Below are positions 5,814 through 30,429 of a DNA stretch of 64,000 nucleotides, one piece after another; within the stretch, counting starts at the first letter, position 1, and every line of letters starts with the position of its first letter. The DNA comes from Eunapius fragilis. Its lineage: Eukaryota > Porifera > Demospongiae > Spongillida > Spongillidae. The notes beneath the pieces are model-generated. The model worked only from the letters and a program-made list of their open reading frames with translations. It had not been told where the DNA came from and searched no databases. The stretch spans positions 15,735,338-15,799,337 of the forward strand of contig OY811971.1 of the NCBI GenBank assembly GCA_963681505.1. The letters run 5' to 3'. The translations under genes and the position numbers were made by a program.

Positions 5814-6063
5814 AGCGTTTAAGTTAAAGGAGGAGTTTGCGTATAAAAGGAGCTTGGCTCCAAGAATTTCAACCGGCCATGCGGCTGAAAACGGATGTTT
5901 TAAGTTTAAAATGGTGTCTCTATACCGCGGTATTTAAGCATGGGCTTGGCAACAACAGCGATCGAGTATTCTTCATACAACTTTTGAATGCCATATCAAT
6001 GCAATGCAAAGTTGATGTTAATAACGCTAAGTTAACAAACTAGGCTATCACATGTTCGTACAA

Positions 6064-8277
6064 ATGGCGGTCTTAGACGACGACTGTTCTCGGTACAGAC
6101 GTCACCTACAACTGTCCTTTTCCTCTCAAGAGGAAAAAGAAACATATCTGCGTAGGTTTGAAGCAGCCAAGCTACTCCTTGCACCCGGTGTTAATAAACT
6201 GAAGGCTACTATCAGCGTATTGAATGCTTTGCTGGACCGTGTGTTGGCGCAAACTGAGAGCGTCCCAGTATCACGTAGCAGAACATCCAGTTCTGCGAAC
6301 GAAATGATGTTGGACTCCGCAGGTTAGTTAGGCTAGAGCTATAAAATAATACACTTTTTGTGTATACTTGCATGATATAGGGATTTATACTGGTGACGAA
6401 GACCCCACTGACCAAGACCTCTTTGTGGTCGAACAAAAGGCCTTCAAGGGACTTTGTTCAGGTCTTGTTCAGCAGTGTGGCTGTCTTTCAAACCCATCTT
6501 GGACATTAGCATCTTTCATAAAGGTCTGAGTTGTGGGGTTATGATTCTGTTTTGTCAAATTGATTCTGGCATAATTTTTTTTGTATCATTCATACTCATT
6601 TACTGCTCACTAGAAGGGACATGTTGCTAGGGTTCAATTTGTTTGCCCACACTGCAAGCAGTCCCGTGTCTGGGCTAGTTCCAGAGTGCTGTCTGGTCAT
6701 TACATTGCTAATCAGAAGTAAGAATATGCACTTATTTAGTAATCATCAACTCAAATGTGTTATCTTACTTCAGACTTGTCCATGCTTTCACCTGTGCTGG
6801 CATTCTACCTCACCAGTACATTAACTTTTGTTCATTTGCTGATATGGGTGAAGTGAAGCAACGATACATTCACTCAAGTGGGATTCTGAAATCACTGATG
6901 CAATTCTCTGATATAATCCATTTTTATTAGTTTATGTGGATAGGCTCTACCAGCAAGTAATAGCAGATGCAGCAGAGGAGTCCATGAAGGCTGCTGTAGA
7001 CTGTGTGAAGGCACGCCCTCACTACGCTACAAGTGGAGAGGTTAGAGATGGCACTCTTGTAAAGAAATATGGTTTGGATGTATTTTGTATTCTCTTAAAA
7101 TAGTGGGTTATAACTGATGCACGTCACGACTCCACTTCAAATGCATACCACTCGACAGTACCTTGTATGGCTGGAAGGTGTAGTAAATGGCATGTTGTGT
7201 CTATCAGCCTGCAAACCATATTGTTCATTTCAGCACACGTAGGATTGTTGGAATTTGCACTCTTTCTAGACAAGAGCACAGGGTAGCTCAGACGAGAGAG
7301 GTGGCGTGTACTAAGATAGTCTTGCCACAAGTTATCGCCCGAGGTTTGCCTTTGTGTTCTAACTATGTACAACTTCATATTTTCACTGTGATGAAGGGTT
7401 GAACATCACAGAGGTAGCCCATGACTACCAGTCTACTATAAAGAAGTATGTAGAAGAACTCGGGATGGTCAATTCCTACGACACATGGCATGGTATGGTA
7501 TCTTTTTTTTTTTAGTGTGTATTATTATTTTGACTTATTGCAGGCACGAAGAATGTGGCAAAGGAGTTGCGTACGATCTGTTGTGGCCTGGCTCGTGCCA
7601 GAGATGTTACGTGGTTCACTGAACTTTCTGACAAGGGTATGCTCCCTCTGGAAATTATTGTTATCAATGAAACAATTTGCTATTCAGCAAGAAGCACCAA
7701 AGTGCACTTGTATTGGTGCATGAGGAACTGTGGTGGCAACCCTGACCGTCTACGTGCAATGATCATGAATATCAGCAAGCACTTTCAGGTTTGTATGTGT
7801 ACATATGTTTGTATCTGTGTGTCTGTGTTGTGTTGAGTGTATTGAGTGATTGGATTCATGCATGTATTGTAAACTTATCACACATGTGTCTACATTCAGG
7901 GTAATCACTGCAGTTGCTATTCGGAGAGTCCCTGTCACCAGCCAGGTTACATTTCAAAAAGGAAGCTTCTCACAATGCCTGCAGCCATTAGTGCATATGA
8001 GGATGCACTAAGAAAAACTCTCATCTACAAAGCAGCTGATTCATTCCATCTTGTATGCAGCATGGTAAATTACATATAATGTTAATATATACATATAATG
8101 TTAATGTTCATGTATGTGTTTGTTTTTCTAGTGTCGAGACACCTTCTGGGTGGAATCATTCAACCACCAGCTTCTCATTTATCTCTCCAAAAGAATTCAC
8201 TTTCACACCAAGACATTTGAGATGCGTATGAAGTTAGCTGTTATGGATTGGGTGAGTGTTTTGTGTGTGGGTGAGTG

Positions 8278-8309
<32 letters not shown>

Positions 8310-8386
8310 ATGGGTGTGCGTGCGTGTGTGTGTGTGTGTGTGTGCATGGGTGTGCGCGTGTGTGTATGTGTGTGTGTGTATGTGTG

Positions 8387-8420
<34 letters not shown>

Positions 8421-8793
8421 CACATTACCACACCATTTCAGAATGAAAACACTCAACGGGTGGCAACAAGTCACCATGACTACACAGATGTTCGTCGACC
8501 AGACCATCGCTCCACATACAACGTGTTGGTAAAAAAAACCTATCGTTTTGTAAAGAATATCTGGACTATGTACATTCTCAAGAACATGTTGTCTCAACAG
8601 TATGTGACAGTCTGATTCCAGCTAATTGTTGTGACACATACCATTTAGGATACTGCAGGAGGATGATGATGACGACGATATGGTGTTACCTTCGGACGAC
8701 ACAGCCATGAATGATGTGGACAGTGATGAGGATCTGGACGTGGATGACTGTGTTTTTTCAGAGGATGATGAAGAAGAAGGCAACTACTGTTGA
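6064..8793 (+). CDS. DxxH-type DDE transposase, Kolobok-like, multi-exon
   Basis: About 14 short exons with GT-AG introns give a protein of roughly 580-600 residues. The start at 6,064 (MAVLDDDC) aligns with the start of copy B. Order of recognisable parts: N-terminal region with [13 protein letters not shown]; a zinc-ribbon-like CPHCKQSR at about 6,645; first catalytic Asp in [14 protein letters not shown] (codon 7,116); second Asp in SYDTWHGTKN (7,480, DxxH); Glu in [10 protein letters not shown] (8,153); and an acidic Asp/Glu C-terminal tail ending at TGA 8,791-8,793. All three catalytic residues are present and I see no stop inside the proposed exons, so this copy looks complete, though activity is unknown. 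Exon joins were inferred by eye, some through comparison with B. The family name rests on the DxxH motif and the TTAA flanks. Confidence 0.7.
8279..8419. repeat. TG microsatellite in transposase intron
   Basis: Imperfect (tg)n tract between the donor after the DW codons and the acceptor ttcag at 8,440 in element A. Confidence 0.95.
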
Positions 8794-8869
8794 GGTAATT
8801 TCAATAGCTTACATAATGTTTGATAATTAGCTGTTTCCACCAGCCATAGGTCTCACTTCTGATTGTCCC

Positions 8870-9437
8870 TCACAAAACAGTTCTTTTTAGAATACCACTA
8901 AGAGCAACAGATAATCTTTGTCTGCACTGCATGCATCCAAAAAGAAAAAAAGTACAAGATTCTACACTACATGTGCATCCTTCCAAGTTGTGGTGATCCA
9001 TGACCTTCGTAACAACAATCCTGAATCCTGCACATGTACAAACCAATGGTACATTGAACACTTGAACTAGGATCTTGGTAAGAGTGTGTGTGTCTTGAAC
9101 AGACCCAAGGAGACCCAAGCAAGCAGTGTAAGCATGTGAGCTAGTGCCATCTAGCACTAGTGGATCTCCTCCAGGGTAACCTGACAGAAAAACCAACTAA
9201 GTGTAATAAATGTGGTAATGTTGCTATGGCAACTAAACAATTACCTCTTAGTCTCACTGTAGATCCTGAACAGGAGGATGGTGGCTGACCCGAGGATGGT
9301 GGCTGACCCGAGGGTGGTGGCTGACCCGAGGATGGTGGCTGACCCGAGGGTGGTGGCTGACCCAAGGATGGTGGCTGACCCGAGGGTGGTGGCTGACCCG
9401 AAGGTGGTGGCTGACCCGGGGATGGTGTCTTGGCTGG
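8870..9437 (-). CDS. Convergent second ORF of element A, Pro/Ser/Gly/Gln-rich
   Basis: On the minus strand, an exon of GQPPPS/GQPPSS repeats (about 9,437-9,245, donor gtaatt, phase 1) joins in phase to 9,180-8,870 (acceptor ctgtcag), giving GSTVRLR-GYPGGDPLVLDGTSS and ending LKRTVL at 8,870. Copy B ends similarly (LKRTVY at 28,607), which supports shared ancestry, not necessarily coding function. Upstream exons are not resolved. The product is not recognised. It meets the transposase tail-to-tail with about 75 bp between the stops. Confidence 0.4.
9282..9425. repeat. 18-bp minisatellite inside element A
   Basis: About eight copies of an 18-bp unit (gatggtggctgacccgag, with a g/a variant) in an open frame on both strands. 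On the minus strand it encodes the GQPP(P/S)S hexapeptide. Confidence 0.95.
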
Positions 9438-10519
9438 TGAATGCTATATATCTACCCCAGGACAGTGATGCACAATGACCTGTTTGAGGTCAGCCACAAA
9501 GCCCACAGGTAGGCATCCACCAGTACTTGAACCACAACCTTTAGTATGTAGGAGTGAGATTTGATATTTGTTTATGTGCTATCTGTTTTACGTAATACAT
9601 GCAGTACTGGTGGCTGGCTTGTTTGCTAATTGCATTGTCATGTTTACCAATTGCATTGCATTGGCTTTTGCTAATGTTTTGCGTGCGTGCTAACTTTACC
9701 TTTACTTTAGGAACAGAGCTAGTTCAGAAGACATTCCTCACCCATAAAGAACTTGCAGGGTAAAAATAACAACTCGTGGAGATGTGGTTTGAGATAACAG
9801 TGAATGAGAGGATGCTGGAAGCAGGGCTTCAAAGAGTGTTTTGAACCTTATTTTCATTACTTTCTTTTATAATCCTGGTACGTTTAAAATTACCTTTTAT
9901 ATACAACCAGTGCTGGCATACAACACAAGCCGAGTGATAGTTGATACGCGCACGTGATGATTGACCTTAGAATGGAACCACGCTCACCTTTCAAACTAAC
10001 TCACGCGCTGCTGTGATCAGTATACATGTATAGAAACGATGATAACACTACACAACGCGGTTTCGAGAACGGTACAAACACACATCAGCTGTACAGGTAA
10101 TGGAACTGTACAGCGCGCTATCGAGCACCTAGAAGCACTTTATATGCCCATTTATACAACGCAAAACGTGAAAACGATGAAAATCAGGGAGGCTGTGCGA
10201 GAGCCCTTAGAGCTCACAACACAGCTCCATCCAGCGGATGTTGAGCTCACGTGATTTCCGTTGCGAGCCAAGCGCCTTTTATACGCGTATTTTCGCATCG
10301 ATCGGCGGGCGTGTGCTGAGGCCTGCGTTAGTATTTACGTAGCGTCTCCTCCTTTAAGGCACGGCCGTACGACCGCCTATGAATAATTAATGAATTAACG
10401 TATTCATTAACCATACGCTTGCATATGTAGGATAATATATCTCGTATTCAATGGCTCGCCGTTTCCGATTCTTGTTTAATTAACGCTACCGTGGTTAGCT
10501 ATCACTTATATCACAAAGA

Positions 10520-23880: not shown

Positions 23881-24000
23881 GGCAGGTGACAATGTTACAC
23901 ACGGTACCATATATCTGTAATGTAATCATACTAGACTATTTGTATCCAAACATGCTGTGTTCTTAGTAACAAGCTTTCGGAGTTGGTTGGAAAGCATCTG
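23881..24000 (-). pseudogene. Right half of the second coiled-coil copy, inverted
   Basis: Reverse complement of 3,915-4,045: codons for the end of the coiled-coil protein (QLRKLVTKNTACLDTNSLV) and its 3' flank. It breaks off after the reverse complement of gatgctttccaacc. The left half with the matching ...gggatgct edge is at 5,463-5,813. The two halves share only gatgct. Confidence 0.8.
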
Positions 24001-24704
24001 TATAGTTTAGCTTAGGGCAGCGTTTAAGTGTTAAAAAACCAGTCGGCGAATAAAAAGCGCTTGCCTGGCAAGCGGTCAGCCGGCCGTGCGGCCAAATTGA
24101 GAGGCAAAAAATGGCGTCTGTTTAACGGTGTGAAACATGGGGTGTCTGTAAATTCCTTCAAACCAATACTCACTAGTGATATCGATGTGCACTCTTCCAC
24201 ATAATTTAGCAGCGATAATTCTAAATTTGCTACAGTCACATGCACACGTGCTTTTGATCAAAATATGGCGACGCGTCATAGATTGAGTCTTCAAGTGACG
24301 TTTTCCTCTCAACAAGAGAAAGATGCCTTTCAAGACAGGCTCGATGCAGCAAAGAGGCTACTTTTTCCTGACGGTCCGCTCCAACGGGAAACGTTGTGCT
24401 TCCTAAATGCCTTGCTTGACCGCGTGCTTACTGCATCGCCAACGCCAACCGTAGACGTGGGTACACCACCAGCTTCAGGAAGTTCGTTGCTAGACACATC
24501 AGGTATACATATACACTGAAAACGTATGTATTATAAAGTTCGTTTTTAGGGATATTTACTGGTGACAGTAATCCCGAAGATCAGAAGCTATTTATTGTAG
24601 AGAAGAGGTGCTTCTATAATCTATGTGAGGGTCTTGTTAAGCACTGCACCTGCAAGAGCTCTCCATGTTGGAAAGTGGCATCATTCATTCAGGTCAGGTT
24701 ATGA

Positions 24705-25089
24705 AATGTGTGTTTTTTAAATGTGTGTACACATGGACGTTATGTATGGGTGTATGTGTGCATGTGGTGTGTGCATGTGCATGAGGTGTGTGCATGTGTG
24801 TATGTGTATGTCTTTACGTACATGTATGTGTGTATGTGGTATGTGCATGTTTGTGTGCATGTGTGTGTGTTTATGTTATGTATGTGTGTGTGTGTGGTTT
24901 GTACATATGTATTTATGTATACGTATGTGTGTGTGTAAGTGTTTATGTATACGTATGTAATGTACGTGCTGTACTGTGCATGTGTACGCATTTGTATGTG
25001 CACATATGGTATGTGTGTTATGCATGCTTGTGTGTGGTGTGTGTGTGCTGTTTATACATGTGAGTATGTATGTGTTTATGTGTATGTAA
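24705..25089. repeat. TG/ATGT-rich low-complexity tract
   Basis: Imperfect tgtgtatgtgcatg repeats in an intron of copy B, directly before the Helitron. Confidence 0.9.
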
Positions 25090-25605
25090 TCTAATACTAT
25101 AATTTACAACGTACGTACGTCCGTCCGCATCATCACCTATTTATAAACCCCGTCTAGCGCCTATTGGTTACTAGGTATCCGTACCTTACCTAGCAACCAA
25201 TAGGAACAACCACCTCCCACAAAGGTGCATAGCAACGCGTACTTAGCAACCATGTATGCCTGCCACAAAACCTACAGCATGCCTGTACAGGTCATCACAA
25301 GCAGAAAGAATAAAAGCAACACTGTTATGGTTCACTCTCAATTCTCATCGTACAGGCCGAGAACATGCAGTTACTATCTGACATAATAATTCCATGGAAT
25401 ATTTGTATTGCGCGGGCATGTTATAGAGGTTGCGTAGTAACCGTATGTGGAACAGGTGGTAGATTATATATGCAACATTGGGTAAAACACTAAAAAAAAA
25501 GGAGCTAGGAGGTGACCAACTGTTCATCTGGCAAATGAATAGCAAGACGAATAACAGCAAGATGAATAATTAGCTAGCCCGTGATTTTTCACCGGGACAC
25601 GCTAG
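25090..25605 (+). mobile_element. Non-autonomous Helitron, 516 bp
   Basis: Starts TCTAATACTATAA directly after a host A and ends ...CACGCTAG directly before a host T, as expected for insertion between A and T. About 10 bp before the CTAG end lies a GC hairpin (cccgtga-tttt-tcaccggg). No target duplication and no inverted ends. Too short to encode Rep/helicase. The flanks are TATG-repeat sequence. Confidence 0.8.
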
Positions 25606-25649
25606 TATGTACATATTTGTTTATGTATGTGTGTATGTACATATCTATG

Positions 25650-25675
25650 TAATGTATGTATGTATGCATGCATGC

Positions 25676-25706
<31 letters not shown>

Positions 25707-25835
25707 TGTATGTATGTATGTATGTATGTATGTATGTATGTATGTATGTATGTATGTATGTATGTATGTATGTATGTATGTATGTATGTATGTATGTATG
25801 TATGTATGTATGTATGTATGTATGTGTGTATGTGT
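25650..25835. repeat. (TATG)n microsatellite
   Basis: About 40 nearly perfect tatg units in the intron of copy B; the MYVC/HTYI frames on both strands are artefacts. Confidence 0.98.
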
Positions 25836-27423
25836 GTGTAAGTGTGTATGTGTGTCTAAGTGTGTATGTGTGTCTGTATGTGCGGTGTCTATGTATGTGT
25901 TTGTTTTGTGCTAGCGGTATTCTGGTATGTACACAATGCATGTGTATGTGTATTATGAATGTGTGAAACTTAGTATCAGGTATGTGTGTAACTCCTGATA
26001 TATGTACATGTAATTGCATAGCTTGGTCATGCTGCTCGAGTGATGTTTGAATGCCAGCACTGCCATACGTCACGCACATGGGCTAGTTCCAGAGTACTGA
26101 ATGGCCATTATCTAGTAAACCAAAAGTGAGAGCATGCTGAGAACATTGCATTGAATTGAATGTTATAATACACTTTTTAAATAGGCTTATCCATGCATTC
26201 ACTTGTGCTGGAATGTTACCTCAGCAATTTGTGAGTTTTGTTCCTTTGCTGGCATTGGAGAAACCAAGAAAGCCTATGCACATACCAGTAAATTCTTTGT
26301 ATTTTTGTTCCTTCACAAGATACTATTATTTTCCCATAGTGTATTATACACTGAGGTACATGAGTGTACTAAATGGCATTGCTGAGGCGTCCATGCAGGA
26401 TGCTATTGAAATGGTCAAAGCTCTTCCACATTACGCTACCAAGGGCGAGGTACATGTACAAGTACTATTTCTATATTTACTACTATCATGTATACAGTGG
26501 GTTATGACAGATGCTCGCCATGACTCTACTTCTAATGCCTTCCATACCACTGTCCCTTGTATAACAGGAAGGTATAAAGTACATGTGAATGAATTTTTTA
26601 AATCTTAGATATTATAGCACTTGTAGAATAGTAGGAATATCTCGTGCTGAACATCATGTGGCACAGACTAGGGAGATAGTGTGTACTAGAAAAGTGATGG
26701 CTGATGTTGTGGCTAGAGGTATGTAGCACAAGGTTTAAATAGACATAGTTCATATTTTTCTTACTGCAGGTCTCAATGTTACTGCTCACTACTGCAGGGT
26801 AAGATGCTTTTCTTTCTCATTGCAACTGCTGTTTGATGTGACAACAAATTCTTATATTTAGTGCAGGGACACATACTGGATTGAATCTTTTAATCATCAA
26901 CTTCTCACATATTTGTCCAAGAGAGTTCATTTCGGGGATGACACTTTTGTTATGAGAATGAACCTTGCTGTGCTTGACTGGGTATGTTTATGGGTATTCA
27001 CTCCTTTGCTAACCATACATGTGCATCTTTCCAGAATGAGAATGTACAAAGAGCAGCCACAAGTCATCGAGTGTATCTAAATGCCCGGAGGCCAGACCGT
27101 CAAGCACCATCTCGTGTGCTTAGGCCAAAAACATTCAACTTTGTTAAACACATCTGGGAGGCATACGTACACCTAAACAAACAGTGTACTAAGTATGTTG
27201 TTTGTGAACATGTGTAGTTTGTACATTAATATGACATTACATCACATACAGTGTTGTTCAAGGCGATGAAGAGGAGGGTTCTAATGATGACGGATTTTTT
27301 GTGCCTGGAGTTGAGGATGGGGACTTTGTTGATGACGATGATGATGACAATGACGATGATGATGACAATGATGATGATGATGACAATGATGATGCTGAGG
27401 ACATCGTTGAAGATGAGATGTAG

Positions 27424-29037
27424 ATGTAGCATGTGTGAGTTGCTCACCCTTCTCTATGTAACCATCTACGTCAATTGCATAGATAGCTCTATTGTTGTAT
27501 ACTTTGCTCTGTGTACTGGTGCTCTATACATGCTACCAATGTAATCTGCTTTGTGATTGAAGGTTTTTTCATGTATGCTCCCAGTTGTTTATAAGTAGAG
27601 ATGTAATGTAATTAATGGCTGAAAACTTGCTTTTGAAAAATTTGAGCAGAACGTTATAGACTACATCGACTCTAATACCTTTACCTTAATTATTTGTACA
27701 ATACACGGAGGATGCATCTTATATTTAGCTTGTACACTTGTCAAATTCAACATTGGCATCTTATCACACGTATAGTTTTGCGAGCGAGCTAGCCTATACT
27801 TCTTGTATGGATTTCTTAGCTGTTTGTAACCATCAATATCACTTTGATAATTGCATCTGCGCATGTTTTTCCCCACAAACCAAGTTTACCACTAGTGCAT
27901 CAAAGTAGTATGTGTGTGTACACGTATGTGTCTGGCCTAGGAAGAGTTAAATTTATTACAACTAAGGCTTTGTACTATTTCAAACGTTGTGTGACTAAAC
28001 ACAGGTATTGGTACTTTTTTAAGAGAATGATTGCTGGACTGGGTTGATATTTATGTCTTATTCATACCTTTGCTGCCATAAGAGCTGTTCCACCTTGTGT
28101 GGCTAGCTATACTTCTAAGTTGTTGTATTGACCTCGCTTCCATACAAAAACTCCTTTACCTCCCAATGCATTTGGACCTGAACTGTCAAGCTGAAACAGG
28201 ATAATGCACTTCCCACAAGGTAGTTTAGATTCAGAAACACTTCTGTGGGACAACAACCTTATCATATGTTTAGGTTGATGTTTAGTATATATTCATAAGT
28301 CGGGGAGACCAGTGTCCCATATGAATCTAATCTACATCTTTCATGTGACTGATGTACCTGTTGATAAGATACGAACTTGGTCTTGCAAGTAGCAACAGTA
28401 CATCTGTTCAGAGTCTTTGCTTTGTACTATACCTTTTTTCTTGTCGTGGTTTGTGTACTGATGGTCCATGCATCTACCATTTTACTGGTACACATTTAGA
28501 ATGTGCTTGGTGATTGATTGTCTTTTCATGTAAGCTCTGAAATTTTGCTTTTTGCACTCGGTGAAATGTGGTATATAAGTTACTTATGAAACATAACTTG
28601 GTTAAATTAATAAACAGTTCTTTTCAGAACTACTACTACTACTAAAGACACTACATATGCCAATCTTGCTAATACATAGAAACAGTGTGGTTCAATTTTT
28701 ACATGTATTTTATGTGTACATGTATGTTGTGCGTACACATGTTTACGTATATATGCATGTGTACACATGACACGTGTACGTAGTGTTTCATGTGTGTGTG
28801 TGCCCACATGTGTAAGTATGAGTACAGTGTGTAAGATGCATGTGTGTGATTGCATACACATATATCAGTATCTGAGTACAGATGTGTATATAGTGTACCA
28901 TGTGTGCTTACACATGTGTAAGTACATTTACATGTGTGTGTAGGTAGTAATGTGTTAAAATGTGTGTGTGCGTACACATGTGTATGTATATGAGTACACA
29001 TGTGTAAGGAGAGTACCATGTGTGTTTTGATTATAAT
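27424..29037. other. Interior of element B without clear gene
   Basis: The segment at 28,607-28,650 matches the end of the convergent ORF of element A (cagttctttt, LKRTVY). The motif cacacgtatagtt(t/c)tgcgagcgagc occurs at 27,768 and again at 30,030. The region 28,690-29,030 is TG/CA-rich. Short minus-strand frames (27,661-27,876) are not recognised. Confidence 0.5.
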
Positions 29038-29742
29038 TTAGGCTTCAAAGGCAGATCTGTACCCTGTATACGGCACTCCTTCAGGGTTTGGAAATCTTCT
29101 CTGTATTTCCTGTGATATATGTACATCATTAAAGTAATTTTGTGTTCTTTTTTTCTTACATCTTGTATACATTGTGGCATGATTTGTCTCATCATGTACA
29201 ACTGTTCTGTCCTGTTTCCTCCTGAGGTATGTTGGGTGATGCCAAAAGCCTACCTGACTCAGGAGCTGCCAGAACTTTCTATACAATCGGAATCTTTTCG
29301 TTCTGTTTGTGAGGGATTGTCTTGCCATCCCTACAAGGAAAGCAGGTGGCCGTGGCACAATGCATGGCCCACATAACCAATGTGGACAGGTTGGACTTTG
29401 AGGTCCGCCATTCATTGTCGGATGGTCTACTGTGGTTGTGGTATTTCCTACAATGTATTCATTATAAACATGTAGGTGTATGAGGTGCTAACAGATACCT
29501 TGTATGTGTAATTCCTCAGATTGCCCTCCAAATGACACTTCAACTTGATTGCACACAACAGAGATGCACATTCCGTTAGAGTTATGTGACTGCACTAAGG
29601 TGTTTAGTTGTTCTAAGAAGTCATTGGGCACATACCCAATACTACTTGTAATCTCAACCTTGAAGAATACAATAGCAATATAAGTTTTCATATGTTGATC
29701 ATAGTCGTTATTTACCTGAATTGCATTTGGCCATGATTGCAT
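29038..29742 (-). CDS. Convergent gene of element B with P2X7 ballast-like domain
   Basis: Three minus-strand exons join in phase: 29,742-29,716 (MQSWPNAIQ, donor gtaaat), 29,658-29,499 (VEITSSIGYVPNDFLEQL..., donor gtatct, phase 1) and 29,447-29,038 (acceptor ttgtag, stop TAA), giving about 198 residues. The C-terminal part has CPHWLCGPC, then RLYRKFWQLLSQ, TRCKKK and IQRRFPNPEGVPYTGYRSA. This order resembles the cytosolic zinc-binding 'ballast' domain of P2X7 receptors (Cys cluster, YRQ--LW, then IR--FP-P-G-YTGF). No P2X channel part is present. The gene faces the transposase tail-to-tail within the same TTAA-bounded element, so it is probably an accessory gene of the transposon. A start further upstream (MYVYMQSWP) is possible. 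The resemblance is from memory, and several zinc ligands of the known domain are not evident. Confidence 0.5.
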
Positions 29743-29820
29743 GTACACGTACACGCTAGTTCTTCGTCAAAGGTCACGTGCCGTATATATATATATATTT
29801 ATTTTTTTCTAAAAGATATG

Positions 29821-29884
29821 CATACTCATACTTGACAAAAAGAAGCTTCTGGGGTCATACTTGACAAAAAGAAGCTTCTGGGGA
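29821..29884. repeat. 29-bp tandem duplication
   Basis: Two adjacent copies of catacttgacaaaaagaagc + ttctggggt/a near the right end of element B. Confidence 0.95.
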
Positions 29885-30429
29885 CTATTTTTTTCTCATG
29901 CTTAGATGGCGTTTCGTGCATGAAGCTCCACTAGCACTTTCCGTACGCGTGGTTGCAAAATCTTGGGTGACTCCGGGGTCCTCGTCATTTGTCTTTAGTG
30001 CATTTTTCTACTCTGATTGGATACTTCACACGCGTATAGTTCTGCGAGCGAGCTAGCCAAGATGTAAATCACGTGATACATAGGGGAATTCCCTTGCCTG
30101 GCAAGCTCCTTTTATACTCGGATCGAAAGAATTATTCGGCGCTGCGCGTGCGTGAACGTACGACGCAATGCGCGTGTATTTACATAAAACCTCGTTCTTT
30201 AAGGCAAATGGGCGCGCCCAAGGGCGCCCCGCGCTTTTCAAACCGCAATGTGATTTGTAACAAGACCACAACTATGAATATTTAAGCACATGAAATACAT
30301 TATCGAAGGATATAAAATACACACCAAGTCTAGCATGCATGACGATACAGCCGGGTCTATGGTGCAGGAAAGCTCCGATGCAGGCAAAATTGAGTCGTGG
30401 TTTACTAGAATGCTAGCAATTGAAACCAA

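Follow-up and report, generated by a model that had tools for sequence, protein, structure and literature searches.

A Young Kolobok-type Element of Eunapius fragilis with an Internally Deleted Transposase Gene and a Decaying, Cysteine-poor KolX-like Gene

We analyzed a 64,000-nucleotide stretch of the Eunapius fragilis genome (contig OY811971.1, positions 15,735,338 to 15,799,337), hereafter called the window, with a focus on the transposable element at window positions 24035–30198. This element is very probably a young, non-autonomous copy of the Kolobok superfamily, whose relatives encode a DDE (Asp-Asp-Glu) transposase and, in convergent orientation, a KolX-like protein related to the ballast domain of the receptor P2X7. 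The conclusion is carried by the ends of the element and its target site duplication, an internal deletion shared by all copies of its type, the convergence of the two genes, the homology of their products to those of genuine KolX loci in the same genome, and constraint on the accessory gene between families.

Kojima and Bao (2022) described KolX, a protein of the Kol0 lineage of Kolobok that resembles the P2X7 ballast, reported Kol0 from vertebrates, annelids, cnidarians, and sponges, and derived P2X7 from a P2X4-like gene that fused with KolX (PMC9587614). A preliminary description of the window had proposed that a transposon accessory gene could have supplied the P2X7 tail; for a Kolobok accessory protein, this idea is not new, having been published in 2022. 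Rump et al. (2020) described the ballast domain across Metazoa, and the words transposase and transposable are absent from the available text of that paper (PMC7016195). As far as searched, two points are new: Kolobok elements can carry KolX-like genes of a cysteine-poor clade, and some element families have only one of the two genes. In the partly available literature that we searched, supplementary files excepted, we found no Kolobok element described as encoding a KolX-like protein with four cysteines.

Ends, copies, and insertion sites of the element

Direct reading of the letters placed the element between a left TTAA at 24031–24034 and a right TTAA at 30199–30202. On the plus strand, which is the strand of the transposase, it begins with the terminal repeat AAAACCAG (24035–24042; the other copies with a visible 5′ end read AAAACGAG), and its right terminal repeat (30191–30198, minus strand), also read in the copies, is AGAACGAG when read inward. 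The search space was the 219-Mb genome in 24 contigs, where a search with a central piece of the element found approximately 15 close copies. Eighteen stretches were taken for reading, and 11 of them (L009–L019) were of the window type, giving, with the window element, 12 copies; these and the BLAST boundaries support the limits of the element. Of the 12, 8 had TTAA at both ends and 11 had it at the 5′ end; copies without TTAA at both ends were truncated or ran into N. The window element is a young, recently copied transposon. With simple repeats excluded, the pairwise difference among 11 copies (L019 left out) was 0.3–2.0%, with a median of 0.8%. Long TG- and TATG-rich arrays lie within the transposase gene at 24700–25120 and 25600–25960, and they differ between copies and confused the alignments.

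The host site is a dispersed repeat (window 23997–24034 and 30203–30310) with many uninterrupted copies. A search with the joined flanks listed 40 places, 31 of which cross the junction without the element; the remaining nine, which include both flanks of the window element, give no useful reading across it. All three empty sites that we read had a single TTAA at the junction, and the two bases just before TTAA in the window's left flank were missing from all three. These data bear out the TTAA-bounded element of the preliminary description. Another copy of the dispersed repeat carries L015 at the same TTAA, in the opposite orientation and without those two flanking bases.

Kolobok elements are described as having a TTAA target and termini 5′-RR and YY-3′ (PMC9587614). 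The present element has the TTAA target site duplication and the termini AA ... CT. Because of the TTAA site, the RR/YY ends, and the homology to transposases beside genuine KolX genes presented below, we assigned the family to Kolobok. The DxxH motif of longer relatives and the convergent genes likewise agree with the Kolobok identity first proposed for this DNA.

A shared deletion in the transposase gene

The transposase gene remnant occupies 24265–27423 on the plus strand in several short exons, whose limits were set by eye and which show homology to transposases beside genuine KolX. By eye, we placed the putative first Asp in TDARHDS near 26510, the putative catalytic Glu in YWIESFNH near 26883, and an acidic C-terminal tail at 27235–27423, all on the same strand. 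Between the two residues, at 26784/26785, lies the junction of an internal deletion of about 580 bp. The junction is identical in all 12 window-type copies, two of which have a point difference beside it. Three other copies have extra sequence at this point (about 315 bp in L020 and about 580 bp in each of L021 and L022), so the missing segment is whole in L021 and L022 and partial in L020.

The missing segment encodes VAHD and SYDTWHG, which we aligned by eye with ATDRH/TTDRH and DVWH/DMWH of the L032, L033, and L040 transposases. With the residues assigned in this way, the segment corresponds to the predicted second Asp and the DxxH (DTWH) signature of the enzyme. The DxxH motif is present in the longer copies L020–L022 and absent from the window copy through the deletion; L021 also has, by eye, the text WCMKNC ... 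HRGCHN, which may be the zinc-finger-like Cys/His group expected of Kolobok between DxxH and the Glu. As the second Asp and the DxxH signature have been deleted, the window transposase should not work as a DDE enzyme, and the DDE transposase that had been assigned to this copy belongs instead to its longer relatives. The window-family transposase matched those beside genuine KolX with 23–26% identity and an expect value (E) down to 8e-9 in tblastn, and the L040 transposase core scored above the Pfam cut-off for a Mutator-like transposase (E = 1.2e-9).

Structure and decay of the accessory gene

The accessory gene lies on the minus strand and converges on the transposase gene. The preliminary description had joined three exons into a 198-residue product, which we reproduced exactly. 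The four splice dinucleotides of that model were kept in 10 of the 11 copies that hold the gene, and the 198-residue frame was open to its stop in 8 of the 11; among these eight, L009 lacks the ATG and L010 lacks an acceptor.

Comparison with relatives revealed, however, a further last intron that the three-exon model reads through. This intron stands directly before the final motif in the sister family (L045, L046, L047, and L050–L055) and in a third family (L048), and the best-preserved relatives read DRREIMPKCVQN before it and EIRSRFPNPVGIPYKGYRSSF after it. The window keeps a canonical donor and acceptor 50 bases apart at 29159–29110 (GTAAG...CACAG, minus strand), with the donor at the same position as in L045, L047, L048, and L050. 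The gene, all on the minus strand, would accordingly consist of a putative exon 1 (29716–29742, MQSWPNAIQ), the least certain one, as tblastn matches in other families start at residue 8 or later; exon 2 (29499–29658), with counterparts in L047, L049, and L052; exon 3 (29160–29447, CPHWLCGPC ... RFRLYRKFWQLL ... HPTYLRRK ... IMPQCIQD), recognized from copies and relatives; and exon 4 (29038–29109, EIQRRFPNPEGVPYTGYRSAFEA followed by the stop), recognized from relatives.

Owing to a small upstream difference in length, window exon 3 is frame-shifted between HPTYLRRK and IMPQC and enters IMPQC in the wrong phase. Nine of the 11 copies have this shifted reading; of the other two, L014 is disrupted at an earlier point, and L018 departs from the pattern. 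Both L018 and L022 are in frame at IMPxC, each being broken elsewhere. The 198-residue frame stays open because the retained intron happens to compensate for the shift, and approximately 25 residues ahead of the motif (TNHATMYTRCKKKRTQNYFNDVHIS) are an out-of-frame or intronic reading, where relatives have IMPxC. The motif IQRRFPNPEGVPYTGYRSA is real and the splice sites of the earlier model stand, but its 198-residue product is partly an artifact. The KolX-like gene of the window is decaying, frame-shifted in most copies read.

Relationship of the accessory protein to KolX and the P2X7 ballast

We compared the relatives with the Pfam model of the ballast, PF20478 (P2RX7_C), for which the gathering cut-off is 23.5 bits. 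PF20478 was the sole Pfam match of the in-frame C terminus of L018 (E = 0.0032, 17.8 bits), of the sister family as a composite of two copies (E = 0.023, 15.0 bits), and of L048 (E = 0.066, 13.6 bits), in all three cases at the C-terminal end of the model. The two joined window pieces, the end of exon 3 and exon 4, align to model positions 168–192 at a sub-threshold E of 0.16 (12.3 bits). Genuine KolX is present in the same genome, where 15 of 18 PF20478 matches lie above the cut-off, compared with none in 14 control genomes; the control L027, a genuine KolX, gave E = 5.9e-18 (65.9 bits).

In hhalign, the KolX-like and genuine KolX profiles matched with E = 1.4e-6 over 56 columns, compared with 0.0042 for the best of 200 column shuffles and 0.15 for the reversed profile. 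With the composite row removed, the match spanned 57 columns at E = 1e-6, and the lowest E among 200 shuffles was 0.0021; none of the 200 shuffles in either run reached the real score. The genuine KolX profile in turn found four distinct P2X7 sequences in the PDB, with a best E of 2.2e-7. These comparisons support the view that the C-terminal part of the accessory protein is homologous to KolX and, through KolX, to the P2X7 ballast. The ballast-like domain of the preliminary description was therefore right in kind, by way of relatives and KolX, although not for the 198-residue product itself.

The clade differs from the KolX of Kol0 in several respects. Seven cysteines were counted in the genuine KolX L027, against four each for the sister sequence and the window pieces (counts only, positions unmatched). 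The CC..EL...C block of KolX is not recognizable, and the KolX-like gene has an extra stretch between the YR-helix and the IMPxC strand as well as the extra last intron. The N-terminal cluster, whose likeness falls outside the hhalign match, reads by eye WCLCGKC in genuine KolX, HCLCGPC in L049, HWLCGPC in the window, and HCLFGPC in the sister family; the Cys cluster noted earlier can thus be seen as a CxCGxC-like group, with one of its three cysteines replaced in the window. The C-terminal pattern R.IMPxC...IR.RFPNP.G..Y.GY aligns with the end of the ballast model, but compared with the P2X7 ballast, the protein has fewer possible zinc ligands and no membrane part was seen; its likeness to P2X7 is significant only through genuine KolX. 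As the cut-off is not passed and there are four rather than seven cysteines, yet the profiles are homologous, we named the gene KolX-like instead of filing it under PF20478. A single-sequence structure model of the read-through exon was too poor for use (mean predicted local distance difference test score 47.3, predicted template modeling score 0.20).

Distribution and constraint across families

The accessory gene was found at at least 33 places after merging of pieces, the search counts being lower bounds. At 17 of the 33, a transposase match lay within 8 kb, and all 17 were convergent, confirming the convergent minus-strand gene of the preliminary description; these places are not independent, because 13 of them are window-family copies. 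We read 9 of the 16 places without a detected transposase (L045–L047, L051–L055, and L057), and all were sister-type. The transposase block of the related stretch L056 was missing in L045 and L057, the only two long enough to show it. Genuine KolX genes of the same genome also converge on a transposase, with convergent transposase text in the approximately 1.5-kb flanks of 8 of the 15 loci above the cut-off. In contrast to Kol0 elements, the window copy lacks the transposase core.

A transposase-only family with TTAA ends and 8-bp repeats AGGAGGAG is represented at window 5823–10359, by L061 and L062 together, and by L063. In these three copies, tblastn with two queries did not find accessory exons (best E 0.022, low-complexity); a seven-residue scrap, CLHCLLG, stands at the place of the lost exon. 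The copy at window 5823–10359 is a second, related Kolobok-type element of the window, with transposase exons at about 6912–8251 and approximately 96% likeness to copies on contigs C9 and C2.

Between families, the ratio of non-synonymous to synonymous differences per site (pN/pS) of the accessory gene was 0.18–0.38 in 9 of 10 pairs, and third positions were the most variable in each of the nine. The tenth pair, two near-identical sister copies, gave 1.58.

Discussion

We propose that the transposase core was lost through a single internal deletion that predates the spread of the window family. With the core already lost at that stage, the window copies must presumably have moved in trans, by the transposase of longer relatives. 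The accessory gene would have been carried along with the deleted elements and later frame-shifted in most copies read. Because its sequence was kept under purifying selection across families, the gene most likely helps the transposition of intact relatives, perhaps through a KolX-like protein acting as a zinc-dependent DNA- or protein-binding cofactor. In the literature searched, in part available, we found no tested function of KolX in transposition.

Several results weigh against this interpretation. PF20478 was not found at E up to 10 with the 198-residue product, the Pfam check suggested in the preliminary description; P2RX7_C was not found with single exons either, and the weak top matches of the product were unrelated families (E = 0.02–0.04). 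We attribute the silence on the 198-residue product to its misread tail. In addition, no tested sequence of the KolX-like clade reaches the cut-off of 23.5 bits (best, 17.8), a PDB search with the KolX-like profile gave no match up to E = 10, and the profiles behind the hhalign match are thin (Neff, the effective number of sequences, 1.3 and 1.5), the match covering only the C-terminal 56–57 columns. The window-family transposase segment matched PF20700, the Mutator-like transposase model whose threshold the L040 core passes, below the Pfam cut-off (E = 0.0067). As for selection, the between-family ratios come from short segments (18–69 codons) with synonymous sites near saturation (pS 0.52–0.92). 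The window family is without sign of constraint, its unique changes being 1 synonymous, 16 non-synonymous, and 2 stop (pairwise pN/pS 5.1), and the sister-family unique changes (9 synonymous, 18 non-synonymous, and 2 stop) are near a neutral mix, with a summed pairwise ratio of 0.49. There is at most a hint of purifying selection within the sister family. Our reading of these sequences is that selection would have acted on the accessory gene while the families moved, with little or none on the present copies.

It is conceivable, though unlikely, that a single Kolobok lineage has divided its two genes between accessory-only and transposase-only element populations, the four-cysteine KolX-like protein acting in trans as a cofactor shared with elements that do not encode it. 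The accessory-only population would then be the window family, lacking a working transposase, and the sister family, of which as many as 16 places show no transposase match; the transposase-only population would be the AGGAGGAG family, one of whose copies lies at window 5823–10359. The four rather than seven cysteines, the empty PDB search, and the unrelated Pfam matches of the 198-residue product would also fit a minus-strand gene unrelated to KolX and P2X7, in which FP...Y.GY is a chance likeness. We consider this improbable, given that the alignment of correctly spliced relatives to genuine KolX has E = 1e-6, with 0 of 200 shuffles as good in either run, that PF20478 is their sole Pfam match and falls at the C-terminal end, and that the KolX-like gene and genuine KolX hold the same convergent position beside homologous transposases.

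More doubtful still is the idea that the 198-residue protein is itself functional, the last intron having turned coding in the window family. Eight of 11 copies keep its read-through frame open, but this is expected anyway because the copies are young; moreover, the donor and acceptor of the last intron are still canonical, the sister families, L018, and L022 read in frame into IMPxC as KolX does, and changes within the family bear no sign of constraint. We give next to no credence to the alternative that the element belongs to piggyBac, in which Kojima and Bao mention a few families encoding a KolX-like C terminus without most cysteines (PMC9587614). The TTAA target, which piggyBac shares, and the loss of most KolX cysteines fit that description. 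The termini 5′-AA...CT-3′, however, are as stated for Kolobok, and the longer relatives have the DxxH motif and match the transposase beside genuine KolX; the partner transposase is here of Kolobok type.

Under the favored interpretation, a non-autonomous Kolobok copy with a KolX-like accessory gene, E. fragilis adds a further genome in which the P2X7 ballast module is a Kolobok accessory gene and indicates the extent to which this module can lose cysteines yet be kept between families. The series within one genome (seven cysteines, four cysteines, and gene absent) could serve to explore the role of KolX in transposition.

Other KolX loci of the genome

Three near-identical genuine KolX genes (L027, L028, and L029) lie within approximately 13 kb at C2:151477–164224, each beside transposase C-terminal text, and may represent a tandem duplication of a Kol0-type element. 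In L038 (C14:2695811–2698987), a long minus-strand open reading frame ends in a PF20478 match, and the rest of it resembles, by eye, a retrotransposon polyprotein with zinc knuckle, protease, and reverse-transcriptase text; this locus could be a retroelement-KolX fusion or a nested insertion. Finally, L040 contains on its minus strand (728–3) a frame that looks, by eye, like a C2H2 zinc-finger array, at most 1.5 kb from a genuine KolX/transposase pair.

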